A stretch of DNA of 64,000 nt from Rhizobium acidisoli (GTDB taxonomy: Bacteria; Pseudomonadota; Alphaproteobacteria; Rhizobiales; Rhizobiaceae). Each line of letters starts with the position of its first letter. The stretch's first letter is position 1. Shown piece by piece: positions 1,678 through 10,550 of this stretch. Below the pieces are notes generated by a model. That model did not search any database. It saw only the letters and a list, made by a program, of their open reading frames with translations, and was not told where the DNA came from. The stretch spans positions 2,976,001 through 3,040,000 of the forward strand of contig NZ_CP034998.1 in the NCBI RefSeq assembly GCF_002531755.2. Reading direction: 5' to 3'. The position numbers were made by a program, and so were the translations under genes.

Positions 1678-2118
1678 TCAGCAGAGCAGCTGCCCATCGG
1701 TCGCGTCGAGCAGAAGGATCGCGAAAATCACGAGATAGACGGCGAGGGCGAAACGCTGCTGCCAGACGATGCGGCGCGATCCGGCAATCCGCTTCTCGAG
1801 GCCACGCGGCGTCCCGTCAGGCTTGCGCAGCTGCATCCGGGACAAGAGGTCGTCAATGGCGGCAAGGCCGGTGGCCTCTGTCTCGTGGCTCGACGCGAGG
1901 CGAAATAACAGCGCATCGAAGAGCAGGTGGATCGCCAGCGCAAGGACAATCCCGCAGAAAACGAGCATCAAGAGCCAGCCGAGCGTTGGAGCGAAACCTC
2001 GATATCCCGCGGTGATCGGGCCGACAATCAGTGGCAACAACGCCGTCAGCCCGCAGAAGATCGCATTGCGGCCGAGATTTCGCGCGGCCGCCGAGGCCGT
2101 GCTATTCCACTGCGTCAT
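1678..2118 (-). CDS. Small multi-pass membrane protein of the ynb-like cluster
   Basis: A 146-residue protein with three hydrophobic stretches (around residues 15-36, 44-70 and 123-140) and a charged loop between the second and third. I do not recognise a named family. The start ATG overlaps the stop of the upstream PAP2/phosphatase gene by four bases (ATGA), so it is almost certainly co-translated with it. Its position as the last gene of the lipid-type operon suggests a membrane role linked to that cluster, but this is inference only. A longer reading frame exists upstream (to 2217) but would overlap the neighbour's coding region heavily. Confidence 0.7.
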   Translation of the reverse strand: MTQWNSTASAAARNLGRNAIFCGLTALLPLIVGPITAGYRGFAPTLGWLLMLVFCGIVLALAIHLLFDALLFRLASSHETEATGLAAIDDLLSRMQLRKPDGTPRGLEKRIAGSRRIVWQQRFALAVYLVIFAILLLDATDGQLLC

Positions 2119-3458
2119 TGCAAGCCCTCCGCCACGGCATGGAGACTTTCCACGGGCAGATAAACACGCCACCCCGCCCGTTCGATCAGCCGCAGCGCTT
2201 CGGCTGGATTGTCGCAACGTCGGCTAATGAGCAGCCAGCGCACGATGACGCCGGCGCTCCGCTGGAAACCCAACGCACAGCAGACGAGGACCGGTCCCTG
2301 CTGGCGCGCAACCTCGATAAGGTTCGCCGCAGCTCGGGTCTGGATCTTGTCGAGACCGGTCAGATCAAGGGTTGGAAAGCTGGACCAGCCCGCAAGCGTC
2401 CCGCTCGGCCGCTGAAGTTCGCCGGTAATGTCGATCACCGTGGCAAAACGGTTGGCCTCGTGGCGACGCGGAAAACGACCAAGATGGACACCATCGGCGA
2501 TCGCCACGGATGCCGGCATTTTTCGGGTCCAGAGCCAAACGTTGATGACAGCGCCGAGCCGGTAGGGCGCCAGTAGCCAGCGGCTGGCAAACGCGGCCCG
2601 GCCATCGCTGCGTTTCAGGAATATCTGCGGACCGGCGCCGAAATATCCGACTGCGACGATCGCCAGCGCAACGGCCGGCCACAGCAACAGAAGCGCTGCG
2701 GCCGATAGAGGCGTGCAGAGCACTGCAAGGCCGAGACATGCGAGGGCGCCGCACAGATAGTAGACGCCAAGACGGCGCGACTTCGGATCGCCGCTCAAAG
2801 CAAAATTCGCAAGAGGCGAACCGGCATCGCGCGGGAAAAGCCAGGCGGCGAACAGACCGAGCAGCATGCCGGTCGGTATGTCCATGACCTGATGCTGCCA
2901 CGTCGTCATCACCGAGGCGCCAATCAGGAAGCACCAGAAGTGCCAGAGAAGCCGCCCCTTCCGCGACAGCCGGCCGCGCAGATGGTCCCAGATCACCACC
3001 AGGAGCGCGATATGCAGCGACGGCGCCTGGTTGAACGGCTTATCGAAGCCACCGAGGACGGCGAACATGAAACCGGGCAGGCCGCTCGTGGCCGGCCGCA
3101 CGAAGGTTGCTTCGAGCGGAAACGCGACAAAGCAGGCGACGGCTACTAGCTGGATCGTCAGATAACGCCTCGCGAGCCTATCCACATCGCGCGGCGTCGT
3201 GTTGATGAACAGGCAGAGTGCGTAGAACAGATTGATCGACCAATAGGGAATGATCGTCCACGCGAAGAACGGAATGGCGCTTTCCCATGCGAAGGCAATG
3301 TTCGGCACATCAGCGCGTTGCGACGCCACCCAATTGGCGCCGCCATAAGTCAGATAGAAGAACGGCGCCAGGAAGACGAGCCAGAGCGCTGCCCGCCTCA
3401 GGACCGGCGCTGCCTCAGAAAGCGTTGAACGTGCCTGCCCCAACGGCTTTGCCCTCAC
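2115..3458 (-). CDS. PAP2 phosphatase fused to dual-specificity phosphatase (YnbD-like)
   Basis: A 447-residue polytopic membrane protein. The first ~270 residues hold membrane helices and a PAP2 (lipid phosphate phosphatase) core with PSLHIAL and, downstream, SVMTTWQHQVMDIPTG, which supply the conserved His/Ser/Asp pattern. The C-terminal third is a dual-specificity phosphatase with the CX5R loop VCCALGFQRSA (Cys394, Arg400); the residue before the catalytic Cys is Cys instead of the usual His. This two-domain design is that of E. coli YnbD. The chosen start is the GTG at 3458, whose last two bases overlap the TGA of the upstream gene (GTGA); a frame extending to 3641 would lie wholly inside that gene. 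Probable substrate is a phosphorylated lipid or lipid headgroup, unproven. Confidence 0.85.
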   Translation of the reverse strand: MRAKPLGQARSTLSEAAPVLRRAALWLVFLAPFFYLTYGGANWVASQRADVPNIAFAWESAIPFFAWTIIPYWSINLFYALCLFINTTPRDVDRLARRYLTIQLVAVACFVAFPLEATFVRPATSGLPGFMFAVLGGFDKPFNQAPSLHIALLVVIWDHLRGRLSRKGRLLWHFWCFLIGASVMTTWQHQVMDIPTGMLLGLFAAWLFPRDAGSPLANFALSGDPKSRRLGVYYLCGALACLGLAVLCTPLSAAALLLLWPAVALAIVAVGYFGAGPQIFLKRSDGRAAFASRWLLAPYRLGAVINVWLWTRKMPASVAIADGVHLGRFPRRHEANRFATVIDITGELQRPSGTLAGWSSFPTLDLTGLDKIQTRAAANLIEVARQQGPVLVCCALGFQRSAGVIVRWLLISRRCDNPAEALRLIERAGWRVYLPVESLHAVAEGLQ

Positions 3459-5191
3459 ACTCTCTCCGCCAGCGAGACGGTGAAAATGCCCCACTGGTCG
3501 ATCCGTTGTTCGATCTTGCGGAAGCCGGCGGCGGCGATCAGCTGGTCCATTTCTTCTTGCGTCCGCCGCCGCATCACCCACGCCTGGCCGCCGCGATGGG
3601 AGGTCAGAGCACGGGCGATCATCTCCAGTTGCGGATGCCATGGCTGGTTGGTGTAGATGAGCAGCCCGCCGGGCTGCATCGCGCGGGCAATCCCATCGAG
3701 CGAAGCGGCGATCATCGCATTGTCGGAAAACAATTCATACAGGCCGGAGACGATTGCGAGATCCGGAGCCGGCGTGATTGAAGCCAACCCCTCGCCGTCA
3801 AAGGCATCCTGCTGGCGGAAGCTTACGAAATCACCCAGTCCCCGCGCAGCGATGCTGTTGCGGCCGGCGTCGACGTTGATGGGGGAATAATCCTGCAGCC
3901 GCGCACTGTCGGGACGCACGGCGGCCGCCTCGATCGCATCAAGGACATAACGGCCGTGCCCGGCGGCTATATCGAGCATGTGGGTACTGCGCCCGGCTGC
4001 TTTCAGGCGCTGCAGCGCGCGGTCGATCAGCTCCTGCAAGTGCAGCTTGCGCTGCCTGATGCCGCGCCAGCCGATCGCCTCAAGGAACACCTTGTCGATC
4101 AACCGTCCGCCGGGACCGAGCCCCCGCGGCTTGTCCTCGTAGACATAATCGAGCGTTGAGCCGGAATCAAAACCGGTCTCGACCCCGGTCCGTATGCCTT
4201 CGGACACCAGTGCCCCGAGCCTGATGTTGAGGCGGCTGAGCGCCCAGTAAATACCGCGTGGGGATGCGGCGTCCAGTGGGCTCGCGAGCCTGTCCGCCTC
4301 ATCCTTTGTATAGCCCTGGATATGGGCGGTGCGAAGGTCGGCAGGCGCCCGGGGCTCGGCGAAACGCGCATCGATAAAACGGCGGATCTCGGCCAAGGCA
4401 ATCGCACGGTCCTTTTCGCCAAGTGTGTCATGGTAGAAGCCGGCAAGCACATGCCGTTCCTTGATCCGGCTGCCGAGGTTTTCGTAAAACCGGTGCTGCG
4501 GCGCGTGTCGCACCACCCAGTCGCTGCCGGAGATCAGCAGCTGGGTCGGAACGGTGATGGCGCGGGCGTCGCCGACGACGCGGGCTGCCACCTCATAGAG
4601 CTGCAACAGGATGTTGGAGGCAATCGGCCGGGTGATCAACGGGTCGGATTCGTAGGAGGCGATGCGCTCGGGGTCATGTGTCAGAAACCTCGCCTTGACA
4701 TAGGAATTGACGAAGAATGTCCCCTTGAGCCTTTCCCAGAGCGCAATGCCCTCTTTGGCAAAAGGCACGTAGAGCTTGACGCTGAAGGCCGGCGAGGCCA
4801 GCACGAGCGCACGGATCGGCGGCGCGTAGTCGTGCACCCAGGTGGTGGCGAGAACCGCGCCGACGCTCTGCGCAATGACAGCGACGTCGTCGACGGCAGT
4901 ACCGCTTGTCTCGCTGACATGGCGGACGAAGCAATCGAGATCATGCGCCGAGGCGGCAAAGGATGGCGAATAGCCGCGCTCCCCCGGTGAACGCCCGTGG
5001 CCGCGCGCGTCCCAGGCGTAGAAGGCAAAATCATCGAGGCCGAGCTCGGTGGCGAGATGGGCGACGCGGCCGCTATGCTCGTGGCCGCGATGGAGAAGGA
5101 CGATTGCGCCCTTAGGTGCAGCACCCGTCGCAGGCCACATCCGATAAAAGAGCCGTGTGCCATCATGCGAGACAAATTCGGATTCATGCAT
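3455..5191 (-). CDS. Alpha/beta hydrolase fused to SAM-dependent methyltransferase (YnbC-like)
   Basis: A two-domain protein of 578 residues. Residues 1-280 form a monoacylglycerol-lipase-like alpha/beta hydrolase: AWDARGHGRSPG, the nucleophile elbow AQSVGA with Ser109, an acid region LLISGSDWVV and the His region GFYHDTLGEKD. Residues from about 395 onward form a class I methyltransferase with the SAM loop LDIAAGHGRYVLDAI. The same fusion occurs in E. coli YnbC. The ATG at 5191 gives MHESEFVSHDGTRLFYR, matching where this family begins; a TTG at 5275 in the same frame would add 28 residues with no family similarity. It is first in a minus-strand operon with the PAP2/phosphatase and small membrane genes and is divergent from the CDP-alcohol transferase gene. 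Confidence 0.85.
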   Translation of the reverse strand: MHESEFVSHDGTRLFYRMWPATGAAPKGAIVLLHRGHEHSGRVAHLATELGLDDFAFYAWDARGHGRSPGERGYSPSFAASAHDLDCFVRHVSETSGTAVDDVAVIAQSVGAVLATTWVHDYAPPIRALVLASPAFSVKLYVPFAKEGIALWERLKGTFFVNSYVKARFLTHDPERIASYESDPLITRPIASNILLQLYEVAARVVGDARAITVPTQLLISGSDWVVRHAPQHRFYENLGSRIKERHVLAGFYHDTLGEKDRAIALAEIRRFIDARFAEPRAPADLRTAHIQGYTKDEADRLASPLDAASPRGIYWALSRLNIRLGALVSEGIRTGVETGFDSGSTLDYVYEDKPRGLGPGGRLIDKVFLEAIGWRGIRQRKLHLQELIDRALQRLKAAGRSTHMLDIAAGHGRYVLDAIEAAAVRPDSARLQDYSPINVDAGRNSIAARGLGDFVSFRQQDAFDGEGLASITPAPDLAIVSGLYELFSDNAMIAASLDGIARAMQPGGLLIYTNQPWHPQLEMIARALTSHRGGQAWVMRRRTQEEMDQLIAAAGFRKIEQRIDQWGIFTVSLAERV

Positions 5192-5438
5192 TGGTCTGGC
5201 CGTCGATGACGAATGCCCACTATCGGCAGCTTGCAGCACGGTCTTCTCCAGTTCTGATCGATGGATAAGTTGCAACCATTAGCGGAACAGTGATTTGCAT
5301 TCATTGCAAAAGTCTAGTCGCAAATGTAAGTCCTATGCGAGAACCGCTATGAAGTATGGACTTCCCCACAAGTACGACGATCTGCACCGCCGGAGCCGGA
5401 ATAGATTTATCCGATGCCACGAAATTCCATGAGGTCGC

Positions 5439-6050
5439 ATGTCTGTTTATCAATTGAAGTCCCGGTTTCAGAATATTCTTCGCCCTCTGGTGCGCTCCCT
5501 TGCGGCGCGAGGCGTCAGCGCCAATCAGGTGACTTCAGTTGCCGCCGCCGTCTCGGTTGCACTCGGCTTCTTTCTGAGCGTTGCTCCGCTTCCGCATTGG
5601 TTCCTGCTGGTGCCTGTGTGGTTTCTCCTGCGCATGGGCCTCAACGCCATTGACGGCATGTTGGCGCGCGAACATGGGCAGAAGAGCATTTTAGGCGCCT
5701 ACCTGAACGAGATCGGTGATGTCGTGTCGGATGTCGCCCTGTATTTGCCGTTTGCGCTCATCGATCCGAACGGCTTGGGGCCGGCGATGGCCGTCATCTT
5801 CCTTTCGGTGCTGACGGAATTTGCCGGTGTTTTAGGTCAAACGGTCGGCGCGAGCCGACGTTACGACGGGCCACTGGGTAAGAGCGACCGAGCAGTGCTT
5901 TTTGGCGCGCTCGGCATCTTTTTCGCGATGGGTGGTACGTTTGCGGCATGGACTTGGTGGCTTTGGGCGGTGGTGGCTCTCCTTCTCATATGGACCATCA
6001 TCAACCGTATCAGCGCCGGTATCCGCGAGGCGCAGACGGCCGCCCGATAG
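5439..6050 (+). CDS. CDP-alcohol phosphatidyltransferase family protein (YnbA-like)
   Basis: A 203-residue membrane enzyme of the CDP-alcohol phosphotransferase family, which moves a phosphatidyl group from CDP-diacylglycerol to an alcohol. The signature region LNAIDGMLAREHGQ...LGAYLNEIGDVVSD spans residues 68-98: Asp72-Gly73, Ala76-Arg77, Gly86, Asp94 and Asp98 are present, but the first Asp of the canonical motif is Asn69 and another canonical Asp is Asn90. Hydrophobic helices surround it. It faces the YnbC-like gene across a 247-base divergent region; in E. coli the corresponding genes form the ynbABCD operon. The alcohol acceptor is unknown. No YnbB (CDP-diglyceride synthase) homolog is seen next to it. 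Confidence 0.85.
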   Translation: MSVYQLKSRFQNILRPLVRSLAARGVSANQVTSVAAAVSVALGFFLSVAPLPHWFLLVPVWFLLRMGLNAIDGMLAREHGQKSILGAYLNEIGDVVSDVALYLPFALIDPNGLGPAMAVIFLSVLTEFAGVLGQTVGASRRYDGPLGKSDRAVLFGALGIFFAMGGTFAAWTWWLWAVVALLLIWTIINRISAGIREAQTAAR

Positions 6051-6157
6051 GGAGCGGAGCCGATCTGCTGCCGGATCTTCCATCAGCACCGGAATGTCTC
6101 AAACGCTGCTTCTTGCAAGTTGCTGACTAAGCGCATCGCTCTACGCCTCCCTCCGTC

Positions 6158-6170
6158 TAACGATACGTTA
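6158..6170. promoter_or_regulatory. Short palindrome upstream of the TnpB-like/PspA operon
   Basis: TAACG-ATA-CGTTA is a perfect 5-base-arm palindrome in the short AT-rich intergenic region, 65 bases before the ATG at 6235. It is a plausible operator for the downstream stress operon, but short palindromes are common and no regulator is known here. Confidence 0.25.
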
Positions 6171-6234
6171 AACAAAGGTTGTATTTTTTGCGCCTCATCT
6201 TGAAAGCACAAAAGCGGTGCTTTATGTTTTATCC

Positions 6235-7374
6235 ATGGCACCCACGAGCAAGACATCGCATCCGTCACTATTGCGCTACATGCTTGCGCCTGACGATCAG
6301 GCCCGACAGGCGCTTGATGACACCATTGCCGCCTATCGCAGGATGACCGACATCCTGAGCGAACTCATCGACGAAAAGGCCGGCGCCAATCTCGTGGTCC
6401 TGCATGATCTTGCTTACGAAACCGTCCGCGAGCAGACGGGCCTGCCGGCGCGGCTGGTCACACTCGGCCTTCGTGATTTCGCCGCCAATCGGGGCGTCAT
6501 CCCCGATCCGCTGCAACTGCCGCTCGACGATAAGCTCTTCGCCATCAAGGGCCCCTCGGATCTCACGATCGCCACGGTGCACGGACGTGTTGCCGTGCCT
6601 TTCGATGTCGCGGGCTATTCCAAGGGATGGGAGAGTATTTTTCCCGCATACCTTGTAGCGGACCACGATCGCTACGAGATTAACATCGGCGTCACGCCGC
6701 ATTCCACTCGGATGGAGGAAAACATGACGAATGAAGGCATTCTTTCACGCATGGGTCGCCTGATCGCGGGCATCGCGAATGCAGCGATCGACAAAGCGGA
6801 AGGCGTCAACAAGATCGCCGTCATCGAACAGGCTATCCGCGAGATCGATGCGGCCGCCGAGGAAGCCCGCACCGACCTCGGCAAGGCGCGGGCTGAGGAA
6901 TACCGCATCCAGAGCCGCAAGGACGAAATCGTCGAAGACATGGACGCGCTCGACGCGAAGATCCGCCTTGCCGTCTCCTCTGGACGGGATGATCTTGCAA
7001 AAGCCGGCGTCGCCCGTCAGATCGATCTCGAATCCCAGATCGCAGCGCTCGACAAGGCGCTGGCCGATGCCCGGGAGCAGTTGGACGAAGGCCAGAAAGC
7101 CCTGCAGGCCGTGCTCGCCACCCGCCGCGAGGCCGACGCCCGCCTTGCCGATTTCAAGCGCAGCATCGCCAAGCATCCCGAAGAAGCCGCAGCCGGCCAT
7201 AACAGACCGACGCCAGGCGCAGGTGCCGCCCGCGCCGCCGCGGCAGTCTCGCGGCTGACCGGCGTTCCCGCGGGCGAGCACACCCATAGTTCCGAATTGG
7301 ACGAGCTTGACCGGTTGCACCGCGAGCGGGCGATCGAGGCACGTCTCGCACGCTTCAAGACCGATAACCGGTAA
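6235..7374 (+). CDS. PspA/IM30-like protein with N-terminal TnpB-like domain
   Basis: A continuous reading frame of 379 residues with two unlike halves. Residues 164-379 are PspA/IM30-like: the amphipathic start ILSRMGRLIAGIANAAIDKA is followed by long coiled-coil helices rich in Glu, Arg and Ala. Residues 1-163 resemble the N-terminal (wedge/REC) part of IS605-type TnpB: the block LHDLAYETVREQTGLPARLV corresponds to the TnpB 'LHkLvYy.vRe..gLpaQ.v' region, and IATVHGRVAVPF to its 'i.tv.GR.kiPF' strand. No RuvC catalytic domain or zinc ribbon follows. ATG 6235 was chosen (GTG at 6217 is an alternative). A strong GGAGG at 6714-6718 precedes an in-frame ATG at 6724, so a separate 216-residue PspA could also be made. 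It heads an operon with YqiJ-like and flotillin genes. Confidence 0.75.
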   Translation: MAPTSKTSHPSLLRYMLAPDDQARQALDDTIAAYRRMTDILSELIDEKAGANLVVLHDLAYETVREQTGLPARLVTLGLRDFAANRGVIPDPLQLPLDDKLFAIKGPSDLTIATVHGRVAVPFDVAGYSKGWESIFPAYLVADHDRYEINIGVTPHSTRMEENMTNEGILSRMGRLIAGIANAAIDKAEGVNKIAVIEQAIREIDAAAEEARTDLGKARAEEYRIQSRKDEIVEDMDALDAKIRLAVSSGRDDLAKAGVARQIDLESQIAALDKALADAREQLDEGQKALQAVLATRREADARLADFKRSIAKHPEEAAAGHNRPTPGAGAARAAAAVSRLTGVPAGEHTHSSELDELDRLHRERAIEARLARFKTDNR

Positions 7375-7379
7375 CGCCG

Positions 7380-8027
7380 ATGGCACTGTTCTTCGCCCCC
7401 GAATGTGCTCCCTTTGCCATCGCCGCCGCCGTGCTTGCGGGCCTGACGGCGATCGAGATGCTCGCGACCGTCATGGGTTTTTCGATCACCGAACTTCTCG
7501 GAAAACCGGATTTCCATGGCCATGACGGCATTGCCGGCTATCTCTCCTGGCTCAATCTCGGCGGCGTTCCCCTGCTCATTCTGCTGATGCTGACACTCGG
7601 CTTCTTCGCCATTTCAGGCTTTGCCGTCCAGGCCGTCGCCAACGCCTTCTGGGCGCCGCTGCCCTCTGTCATCGCCGTCATTCCAGCTCTCTTGATCACC
7701 TTCCCCATGGTCAGGGCATCGAGCAGAACCGTGGCGCGGATCGTGCCGCACGACGAGACCTATGCAGTCGATCTCGACGCCCTCGTCGGCCGGACCGCCG
7801 AAGTGTCCCTCGGCCCGCTCGATCAGGGACTGCCGGGACGCGTTCGCGTCAAGGACCAGCATGGAAACTGGCATGTGCTGAGAGCCAGGGCCGCCAAGGA
7901 TCAGCAGCCTCTCGGGATCGGCACGCAGGTTCTCCTCGTCGATCGCAATGCAGATGTGTTTATCGCCATTCCCGCCCTGGTGGATCCCACCGGATCGGAC
8001 AATCAATCTTTCACGGAGCAGTCATGA
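7380..8027 (+). CDS. YqiJ/NfeD-like inner-membrane protein with OB fold
   Basis: A 215-residue protein resembling E. coli YqiJ. The N-terminal half has membrane helices (about residues 10-35, 55-85 and 90-110); the C-terminal half, from about residue 130, is a soluble beta-rich region typical of the NfeD/OB-fold domain (GRTAEVSLGPLDQGLPGRVR, then VLLVDRNADVFIAIP). NfeD-type proteins accompany flotillins in many bacteria and are thought to help organise membrane domains. It lies five bases after the PspA-like gene, and its TGA overlaps the ATG of the flotillin gene (ATGA), so the three genes are one transcription unit. Confidence 0.8.
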   Translation: MALFFAPECAPFAIAAAVLAGLTAIEMLATVMGFSITELLGKPDFHGHDGIAGYLSWLNLGGVPLLILLMLTLGFFAISGFAVQAVANAFWAPLPSVIAVIPALLITFPMVRASSRTVARIVPHDETYAVDLDALVGRTAEVSLGPLDQGLPGRVRVKDQHGNWHVLRARAAKDQQPLGIGTQVLLVDRNADVFIAIPALVDPTGSDNQSFTEQS

Positions 8028-9787
8028 TGTATGACATTCTTCTACCGGCCGGCATTGCAATCGTTCTGATCTTCGGCATCGGTTTTGTCCTCGCCTCCCT
8101 GTACACACGCTCCAGCCGTGACGAAGCCTATGTGCGCACCGGCCTCGGCGGCCAGAAAGTCGTGCTCGACGGCGGTTCGGTCGTCCTGCCGATCTTCCAT
8201 TCCACGGCCAGGGTGAACCTGAAGACGCTGCGGCTGGAAGTCCGCCGCGGCGAAGGCGACGCGCTGATCACCAAGGACCGCATGCGCGTCGATATCGGCG
8301 CCGAGTTCTACGTCCGCGTCAAACCCGATGCCTCCTCGATTGCGCTTGCCGCCCAGACACTCGGCAACCGCACCAATGATGCCGAGGCGCTTCGTATCCT
8401 GATCGAAGCAAAATTCGTCGACGGCCTCCGCTCGGTGGCCGCGACGATGAATCTCGACGCGCTGCAGGAACAGCGCATGGACTTCGTCAAGGCCGTGCAG
8501 GAAGCCGTCGGCGCCGATCTTCAGTCAAACGGTCTCGAGCTCGAATCCGTGTCGCTGACGCGCCTTGACCAGACCGACATCAAGCACTTCAACGCCAACA
8601 ACTTCTTCGATGCGCAAGGTCTTGCAGCATTGACCCGCATCACCGAGGGTCGCAAGAAGGAGCGAAACGAGATCGTTCGCGATACCGAAGTCGCCATCGC
8701 CCAGAAAGATCTGGAGGCCCGCCAGCAGTCGCTGACCATCGAGCGGACGAAGCGCGAGGCCGAACTCAGCCAGGAACGCGACATCGCCAACAAATCCGCG
8801 GCGACGCGCGCCGAAACCGCCCAGCAGGAGCAGGCGGCAAAACGCGCCGAGGAAGAAGCCCGCATTGCCTCCGAACAGGCGATCGCCGAACGCGAAGCAG
8901 CCGCCAAGCAGGCCCGCGAAAGCGCCAACATCGACGCGGCCCGCGCCGTCCAGCAACGCGAAACCGAAGCCAAGCGCGACCTTCAGATCGTCGCCCAGGA
9001 AAGCGCGATCGCCGTCGCCAATAAGAGCCGCGAGGAATCCGAGGCGAAGGCCACCGCCGAAGCCGCCCGAGCGCTGGCAATCGCGGCAGAGGAAAAGGTC
9101 GGCACGGCCAAGGCGATCGAGATTGCCGAGCGCGAAAAACAGATTGCCGTGATCGACGCGCGCAAGAAAGCCGAAACCGAAGCGACCGCCGTCACTGTCG
9201 GCGCCGAGGCCGAGAAGCAGGCGGCGATCGACCAGGCCGAAGCGATCAAGACGCTGGCGAACGCCGAAGCGGATGCGGCGATCATCAAGGCCAAGGGTGT
9301 TCTCGAAACCGGCAAGGCAGCGGCGGAAAGCGAGGCTTTGCTCAACGAAGCCCGCAACAAGCTCAGCCAGACCATCATCGAATTCGAGATCACCCGTGAG
9401 CGTATCCGCATCATTCCCGAGGCGCTTGCCGAGGCGGTCAAGCCGATCGAGAAGATCTCCGATATCAGGATCTTCGATACTGGCGGCATGCTCGGCCGCG
9501 GAAATGGCGGGAATGGCGACAGCGGCATCGGCCTTGGCGAGGGCCTGGCCGGCCAGCTCCTCTCCTATCAGGCCAACAAGCCGATCCTCGACAGATTGCT
9601 GAAGGAGGCCGGCTTCGAAGGCGACAATGCCATCTCGTCTCTCCTTGGAAATCTCGATGGCGCAAAACCGGCAAAGGCGGTTGCGGCTCCGGTAAAGCCG
9701 GCAATACCCGCAGCACCTCCGGCAACGCCGGCACCGGCCGCAGCCACGGCAAAGCCGATCGCCCCGTCGGCGCCGACGAAGGATTGA
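8024..9787 (+). CDS. Flotillin (YqiK-like SPFH-domain protein)
   Basis: A 587-residue flotillin. One N-terminal membrane helix (residues 5-27) is followed by an SPFH/band-7 domain (about 35-210), then a very long Ala/Glu-rich coiled coil (about 215-460) with repeated EAEKQAAIDQAEA-like heptads, and a Gly- and Pro/Ala-rich tail. Flotillins form oligomeric scaffolds in ordered membrane domains. Together with the upstream YqiJ-like gene this matches the E. coli yqiJ-yqiK pair, here expanded by a PspA-like gene, which points to envelope-stress or membrane-integrity work. It ends 22 bases before the convergent end of the metallophosphoesterase gene. Confidence 0.9.
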   Translation: MMYDILLPAGIAIVLIFGIGFVLASLYTRSSRDEAYVRTGLGGQKVVLDGGSVVLPIFHSTARVNLKTLRLEVRRGEGDALITKDRMRVDIGAEFYVRVKPDASSIALAAQTLGNRTNDAEALRILIEAKFVDGLRSVAATMNLDALQEQRMDFVKAVQEAVGADLQSNGLELESVSLTRLDQTDIKHFNANNFFDAQGLAALTRITEGRKKERNEIVRDTEVAIAQKDLEARQQSLTIERTKREAELSQERDIANKSAATRAETAQQEQAAKRAEEEARIASEQAIAEREAAAKQARESANIDAARAVQQRETEAKRDLQIVAQESAIAVANKSREESEAKATAEAARALAIAAEEKVGTAKAIEIAEREKQIAVIDARKKAETEATAVTVGAEAEKQAAIDQAEAIKTLANAEADAAIIKAKGVLETGKAAAESEALLNEARNKLSQTIIEFEITRERIRIIPEALAEAVKPIEKISDIRIFDTGGMLGRGNGGNGDSGIGLGEGLAGQLLSYQANKPILDRLLKEAGFEGDNAISSLLGNLDGAKPAKAVAAPVKPAIPAAPPATPAPAAATAKPIAPSAPTKD

Positions 9788-9809
9788 TCGAAGGGCTGGC
9801 GGGTCTGGG

Positions 9810-10550
9810 CTATCTCACCCAACCCGCCGCCAATGCACTCGCCCAGTCGGCACGGCCCCTTTCGGCGGCCAGTGCCGACATCGCCATATGGTCGTAGGCG
9901 ACGGATCGAAACTGCCATATCCATCCGGCCGCCGTCTTTTCCAGAATAGCGTAACTCGCCAGCGGATGGCCGGCTTCGACCTTGTGGCAGTAGGGCAGCA
10001 CGTCGTCATAGGCGGGGCAGCCGACGCTGCCGGGATTGACGATCAGCCGGCCGTCGGAAAGGCGGATGGCGCGGGGAATGTGGCTGTGGCCGCAGAGGAT
10101 CAGCGGCAGGTCGATGCCGTCGGCCAGCGCCTCGATCGCTTCGATCGGCTTCAGAAAGACGAATCCATCAGGCGAGACCGATTCCAGCCAATAGAGATTG
10201 TCGTCCTTCGGCGTCGCATGGCAGAGATAGGCCTCGCCGCGATAGACGGTATCGAACGGCAGGCTGCGCAGCCAGTCGAGGTGGGATGGCGTCAATTGCC
10301 GATAGGCCGCAGCATCCGAGCGATGCATCGTGGCCGGGTCCTGTTCGATCAGATAGCGGTCGTGATTGCCGCGGACCGAGGTCAGGCCGAGCGGCATCAG
10401 CAGATCCGCGGTCCGGCCGGCCTCCAGCGGGCCGCTGAAGAAATCGCCGAGATTGACGATTTCCTCGATGCCTTCAGCGCGAATATCCGCAAGCACCGCC
10501 TCGAGCGCCAGATGGTTGCCGTGGATGTCGGCGATTGCGGCAAAACGCAT
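9810..10550 (-). CDS. Metallophosphoesterase (YfcE/MJ0936-like)
   Basis: A 246-residue calcineurin-like phosphoesterase. The dimetal site motifs are all present: ADIHGNHLALE near residue 7, NLGDFFSGP, RGNHDRYL and the C-terminal CGHSHIPRA. Such proteins hydrolyse phosphodiesters or phosphomonoesters with Mn or similar metals; the substrate is not evident. It begins two bases after the stop of uraH, so it is the last gene of the ureide operon, although no function in purine breakdown is established for it. Confidence 0.8.
   Translation of the reverse strand: MRFAAIADIHGNHLALEAVLADIRAEGIEEIVNLGDFFSGPLEAGRTADLLMPLGLTSVRGNHDRYLIEQDPATMHRSDAAAYRQLTPSHLDWLRSLPFDTVYRGEAYLCHATPKDDNLYWLESVSPDGFVFLKPIEAIEALADGIDLPLILCGHSHIPRAIRLSDGRLIVNPGSVGCPAYDDVLPYCHKVEAGHPLASYAILEKTAAGWIWQFRSVAYDHMAMSALAAERGRADWASALAAGWVR

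Follow-up and report, generated by a model that had tools for sequence, protein, structure and literature searches.

To our knowledge, the TnpB-derived gene regulators known, the TldR proteins, all use a guide RNA, and we know of no case in which the TnpB lobe that reads the target-adjacent motif (TAM) serves as a transcription-factor domain. TldRs are described as nuclease-dead, TnpB-like, RNA-guided repressors, whose nuclease domain is inactivated and which work with guide RNAs (part of PMC13418256). Operons that join PspA, YqiJ and flotillin, together with CesT/Tir, have also been described (part of PMC11237479). Here, we analyze a 64,000-nucleotide stretch of the Rhizobium acidisoli genome (NZ_CP034998.1, positions 2,976,001 to 3,040,000; hereafter the window), in which a TnpB-like lobe is fused in frame to PspA, likewise beside a YqiJ-like protein with three transmembrane segments and a band-7/flotillin protein. 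Sequence comparisons suggest, with a probability of roughly 0.8, that a TAM-reading lobe has become a protein-only operator-binding domain that would control its own PspA-YqiJ-flotillin operon.

Compared with TnpB of IS200/IS605 (NCBIfam NF040570, guided_TnpB), the fusion shares the collinear WED-REC-WED lobe and the predicted fold, but it has no RuvC domain or zinc ribbon, sits in a stress-type operon, and probably recognizes a dyad within the promoter of that operon. Like TldR, it would be a TnpB relative turned transcription regulator; RuvC is inactivated in TldR (part of PMC13418256), whereas the fusion has lost it altogether and probably reads its site as protein alone. With PspA/IM30/Vipp1 proteins (PF04012) it shares the PspA start and coiled coil, to which the N-terminal lobe is added. 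The word TnpB is absent from the main texts of two surveys of phage shock protein systems (PMC11237479, PMC9239133), and the passages of PMC11237479 examined mention no such operator. In a literature collection without most subscription journals, searches that paired TnpB with PspA, with flotillin or with phage shock returned no relevant paper, and searches on Rhizobium PspA with flotillin, TldR and exaptation showed no such protein. Within the literature searched, a TAM-reading lobe as a transcription-factor domain is new, and its component families are known.

A TnpB-derived lobe in frame with PspA

The fusion is a single open frame on the forward strand, from an ATG at 6235 to a TAA ending at 7374, and encodes 379 residues. 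Residues 1-163 (6235-6723) make up the lobe, with a homologous core at residues 12-155 in profile comparison. The PspA/IM30 part, residues 164-379 (6724-7374), begins directly after it. This part matched PF04012 (PspA_IM30; residues 168-292, model positions 1-123 of 220) with 53.2 bits, above the gathering cut-off of 33.9, and resembles solved PspA/Vipp1 proteins in PDB sequence matches; it fell below the cut-off of the PspA equivalog TIGR02977 (37.1 bits vs 242.95). Neither Pfam nor NCBIfam detected a RuvC nuclease domain in the fusion, and the zinc ribbon PF07282, which is matched in a real TnpB of the same type, gave no match; the frame runs on into PspA. These scans agree with an earlier sequence-only reading of the window, which had described the last 216 codons as a PspA coiled coil and the fusion as devoid of RuvC and zinc ribbon. 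Database searches returned 686 relatives at E <= 0.001; among the 120 matches listed, coverage of the fusion was 83-100%, and the closest proteins, from Rhizobium and R. etli, were 97 and 95% identical.

The same reading had called the first 163 codons TnpB-like, and profile comparison, performed with hhalign in place of HHpred, confirmed this with a strong match to a TnpB profile over residues 12-155 (98.9-99.5%, E 3e-17 to 6e-22). The collinear lobe aligns with a TnpB subtype over 144-150 columns, and its predicted fold is of the TnpB/Cas12 type: every VIA match among the 50 listed was to Cas12, TnpB, Fanzor or TranC. The lobe is homologous to the WED-REC-WED lobe of TnpB. A profile hidden Markov model built from the N-terminal parts of 11 plasmid TnpB proteins recovered 207 of the 209 targets (E < 1e-3) and missed P0096 and P0097. 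Three of the targets were short TnpB-like proteins; the other 206 were fusions or fragments, many being near-copies. Run against 814 reversed, shuffled and window open reading frames, the model matched only the 6235-7374 frame itself at E values up to 10. The fusion lobes form one clade.

Residues 1-168 alone matched nothing in Pfam or PHROGs and gave a single meaningless NCBIfam match (E 0.1). In a real TnpB of the same type, the Pfam model OrfB_IS605 spans just residues 156-248, on the RuvC side. No curated family matches the lobe. Profiles of the lobe alignment found nothing among PDB sequences, and PDB sequence matches of the lobe itself were weak and unrelated. An ISDra2-type TnpB profile gave no match with the fusion: the homology is with a single TnpB subtype, and ISDra2 is connected to the lobe through predicted structure. 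A phage collection returned no match and PADLOC a single one under 0.01, in the coiled coil. An unrelated hydrolase family, reached by 2 of 21 lobes with a best E of 0.02, was rejected.

A promoter dyad that accompanies the lobe

Immediately upstream of the fusion lies a predicted sigma70-type promoter on the forward strand, TTGAAA-17-TATGTT (6200-6228; 1 found vs 0.1 expected), with the -35 at 6200-6205 and the -10 at 6223-6228. Leaderless mRNAs exist as a class, and because the ATG at 6235 begins only 6 nucleotides past the -10, this mRNA is predicted to be leaderless. The promoter spacer contains a dyad, AAAGCAC-AAAAGCG-GTGCTTT (6203-6223), that we consider a candidate operator. When upstream DNA from 24 divergent loci was aligned, one conserved block emerged. 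In 87 of 87 promoters, many of them from closely related loci, AAAGCAC-N7-GTGCTTT lies between the -35 and -10 with 11-14 of its 14 half-site letters intact (all 14 in 66), flanked by TTGAAA-like and TATnTT-like hexamers; the initial ATG falls 6-7 nucleotides past the -10 in 68 of the 87. Aligned on the site, 110 loci show 1.3-2.0 bits at half-site positions and mostly 0.0-0.5 beyond the promoter block. Among 31 later, more divergent loci, the strict dyad rule holds in 24 and fails in seven, one of which is a decayed remnant (L252). In distant loci both arms are altered together: AAAGGAC/GTCCTTT in L155, AAAACAC/GTGTTTT in L202 and GGAATAC/GTATTCC in L258. The pattern AAAGNAC-N7-GTNCTTT matches once in the 7.5-Mb genome, where the informative point is the lack of a second site, a single match alone being uninformative. 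One genome family (L152, L153, L154, L209, L213, L237-L239) carries an extra GTGCTTT or GTGCTTA one base past the dyad, at the expected -10.

The presence of the dyad follows that of the lobe. We compared 53 regions, comprising 10 from a draw of the order, 40 from a phylum-wide draw of genomes with YqiJ, and three loci of the class that were picked because they bear the lobe. The dyad was found at the operon in all 14 regions that have the lobe (in 13 the strict rule holds, and L202 has a compensated form), in none of seven operons with PspA but no lobe, and in none of 32 regions where BLAST with the window protein found no PspA. Among these 32, there is a match in L195, ~640 nucleotides upstream of YqiJ, and another in L222, ~5.8 kb away, which is near chance level.

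Two residues of the lobe co-vary with the half-sites. Across 110 non-identical loci, C5 is missing from both arms in seven (L034, L035, L036, L155, L251, L256, L258), and these are precisely the loci with Q73; the remaining 103 carry R73, encoded in the window at 6451-6453 (forward strand). Likewise, both arms lack G4 in three loci (L202, L251, L258), precisely those that lack H57 (codon 6403-6405, forward strand). Dropping L256, whose dyad is weak, and L258, whose dyad was found by its geometry, kept five of five Q73 loci with no exception in 108. Residue 76 (T76 in the window, codon 6460-6462, forward strand) changes alongside R73 in some loci, and V76 is not a strict partner: Q73 occurs with T76 in L036, L251 and L256 and with A76 in L258. 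When all variable columns were scanned over 63 representatives, residue 73 ranked top for C5 and residue 57 top for G4. In the tree, L257 (R73, C5) adjoins L034 (Q73, G5; 80/66). Co-occurrence of the dyad with the lobe, together with this co-variation over about three independent changes, is the pattern of an autoregulator, and points to double-stranded DNA of its own promoter, rather than RNA, as the predicted target.

In ISDra2 TnpB, the TAM is contacted by Y52, S56, K76, F77 and Q80 of REC and by T123 and N124 of WED (part of PMC10097598). Mapped through the subtype profile, the REC contacts fall near fusion residues 52, 56-57, 72, 73 and 76, in a register of low confidence. On that alignment, residues 73 and 57 may lie in the helices that read the TAM in TnpB.

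Internal start, operon and distribution

The PspA part has its own ATG (M164, codon 6724-6726), preceded by an internal Shine-Dalgarno sequence, GGAGGA (6714-6719, forward strand). Of 57 non-redundant sequences drawn from 98 loci, 56 have a strong Shine-Dalgarno sequence ahead of a Met where PspA begins, with a mean of -9.0 kcal/mol vs -2.7 for 13680 control codon positions, 26% of which attain -4. Taken with the predicted leaderless start, this internal site leads us to expect both the lobe-PspA fusion and free PspA, a predicted second product of 216 residues.

The fusion is the first gene of the operon and is followed on the same strand by genes for a YqiJ-like membrane protein with an OB fold (7380-8027; PF21001, PF07290) and a flotillin (8024-9787; Band_7 plus Flot by domain scan). 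YqiJ is a neighbor in all 85 of the 85 loci compared, flotillin in 82; the three loci without flotillin are cut short at ~3.4 kb, and their longer stretches (L157-L159) show flotillin adjacent. Annotated plasmids of Bosea, Agrobacterium and Shinella show an identical gene order. A single frame encodes both lobe and PspA in all 14 lobe operons of the co-occurrence set, in 84 of the 85 context loci (the 85th, L035, has a 390-residue frame on the correct strand), and in 29 of 31 later loci, where the frames span 369-519 residues and the others are L252 and L257. L252 is a decayed copy, with a 75-residue remnant of the lobe plus the PspA tail. In L257, a free-standing lobe (1483-1998) directly precedes YqiJ, no PspA intervenes, and no significant PspA match was found within the 3.4 kb examined; a canonical dyad is present, and a GTG start follows shortly after the -10. 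The sequence-only reading had asked whether homologs keep the fusion and its operon context, and their survey indicates that both the upstream domain and the operon context are conserved.

Relatives of the lobe were encoded in 186 stretches of genome_contigs, 80 of which we retained as loci. The lobe is sparsely distributed: in even draws, 25 of the 397 genomes sampled from the order carry it (one as a 75-residue remnant), as do 9 of 389 from the class, and an earlier, narrower lobe profile found it in 4 of 289 genomes of the class. The R. acidisoli genome encodes two more plain PspA-family proteins (C3:59373 and C1:732379) and six relatives of PspF, none above the PspF cut-off. A gene for a CDP-alcohol phosphatidyltransferase (5439-6050, by domain scan) adjoins the fusion and lies near it in 23 of 85 loci; the lipid-type genes at 2115-6050 appear to resemble E. 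coli ynbACD.

Short TnpB-like lobes without RuvC also occur elsewhere. On a Thermobacillus composti plasmid, WP_157373766.1 (L117:3004-3534; 176 residues) is encoded beside an S-layer protein gene and has a perfect dyad upstream, ATAGATT-N5-AATCTAT, unrelated to AAAGCAC-N7-GTGCTTT; here a lobe may have been retained alone, independently. On a Rhodothermus marinus plasmid, WP_014072562.1 (L124:1483-2019) groups with Thermus and Allomeiothermus TnpBs at weak tree support, and the same rule detected no dyad upstream of it. A short lobe of Acidithiobacillus has a GC-rich dyad upstream. Short lobe proteins numbered 175 in all; the 14 inspected among the 120 listed look like partial genes or abnormally ending frames, and were not counted as free-standing lobes.

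Alternative explanations and a proposed switch

Several observations weigh against the favored explanation or temper its evidence. The pairing rule (G5 with Q73 and V76; A4 of L202 with T57 in place of H57) was noticed first and then tested on later loci, and the co-variation amounts to about three independent changes on long branches, a number with which a sign test cannot reach significance. The ISDra2 map bridges TnpB subtypes at 28%, and the fusion itself does not match the ISDra2-type profile. The strict dyad rule fails in 6 of 30 intact later loci; one arm is altered in L245, L246, L247 and L249, the dyad of L256 is weak, and L258 has another sequence in the same geometry. Reversed controls of the genome patterns likewise gave one match each. 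The PspAs of the seven lobe-free operons are just 31-38% identical, so kinship could account for part of the contrast in dyad presence. Finally, the Shine-Dalgarno control is uncorrected for Glu-rich codons before Met, and the lobe may have an RNA partner.

The dyad might instead be the site of an unrelated regulator encoded elsewhere, with the lobe merely tuning PspA assembly or binding other partners. Described PspA systems do use separate regulators such as PspF (part of PMC11237479). We consider this unlikely, since the dyad pattern has one match in the genome, tracks the lobe rather than PspA, YqiJ or flotillin, co-varies with residues 73 and 57, and is retained with the lobe in L257, where no PspA was found alongside. 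That free-standing lobe, together with the strong conserved Shine-Dalgarno sequence at the PspA start, would also fit an incidental fusion, in which two translationally coupled genes merely have no intervening stop and their separate products alone matter. The single frame shared by nearly all lobe loci argues against this account, which we judge improbable, and which is in any case compatible with the DNA-binding part of our favored explanation.

A role for the dyad in RNA, as a leader hairpin bound by the lobe in translational control of its own message, seems very improbable. WED and RuvC of TnpB bind the omega RNA scaffold (part of PMC10097598), and the site at 6203-6223 scores as a terminator-like stem-loop. 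Yet in 23 of 110 loci the arms are unpairable at one or more positions even with G-U counted as paired, and we hold both hairpin and terminator readings unlikely on this ground. The flanks also fit a -35 and -10 with the ATG soon after, so that the dyad would lie upstream of the transcript, and positions 5000-10000, scanned for omega or guide RNA as well, matched no Rfam family at E up to 1.

In the explanation that we favor, operator binding by the lobe, a pair of lobes would read AAAGYAC-N7-GTRCTTT between the -35 and -10 of its own promoter. This binding step is well supported by sequence; we infer the DNA binding itself, its dimeric form, the leaderless start, repression, co-assembly and release by stress. 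Bound there, the lobe would block or shape transcription of the operon that encodes it, and repression seems likeliest, since the dyad fills the promoter spacer. The internal ribosome-binding site would yield free PspA from the same mRNA, and the fusion would co-assemble with it on damaged membrane; this would lift the lobe off the operator, and PspA, YqiJ and flotillin would rise. The sign of regulation and the coupling to the membrane are guesses. The logic would parallel that of PspA and PspF in enterobacteria, except that a single chain would hold both sensor and DNA-binding domain. The earlier proposal that an envelope-stress operon has captured a nucleic-acid-binding fold is supported by the TnpB match and the conservation of the upstream domain, and the dyad and its co-variation point to double-stranded promoter DNA as the ligand.

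We lean, with less assurance, towards a broader statement: that the TAM lobe of Cas12/TnpB has become an RNA-free transcription-factor domain that reads a palindromic operator with its former TAM residues and that, in Hyphomicrobiales and related Alphaproteobacteria, has been joined to ESCRT-III-like PspA as a one-protein membrane-stress sensor and gene switch. If true, the lobe would represent a new class of DNA-binding domains and offer a natural experiment on TAM specificity in the absence of RNA, and in the PspA circuit a single polypeptide would be both sensor and regulator. The compact, ~150-residue lobe would carry what appears to be a natural code of specificity, in which R73 goes with C5, H57 goes with G4 and Q73 accompanies other bases, its TAM-contact positions apparently re-tuned together with the operator.
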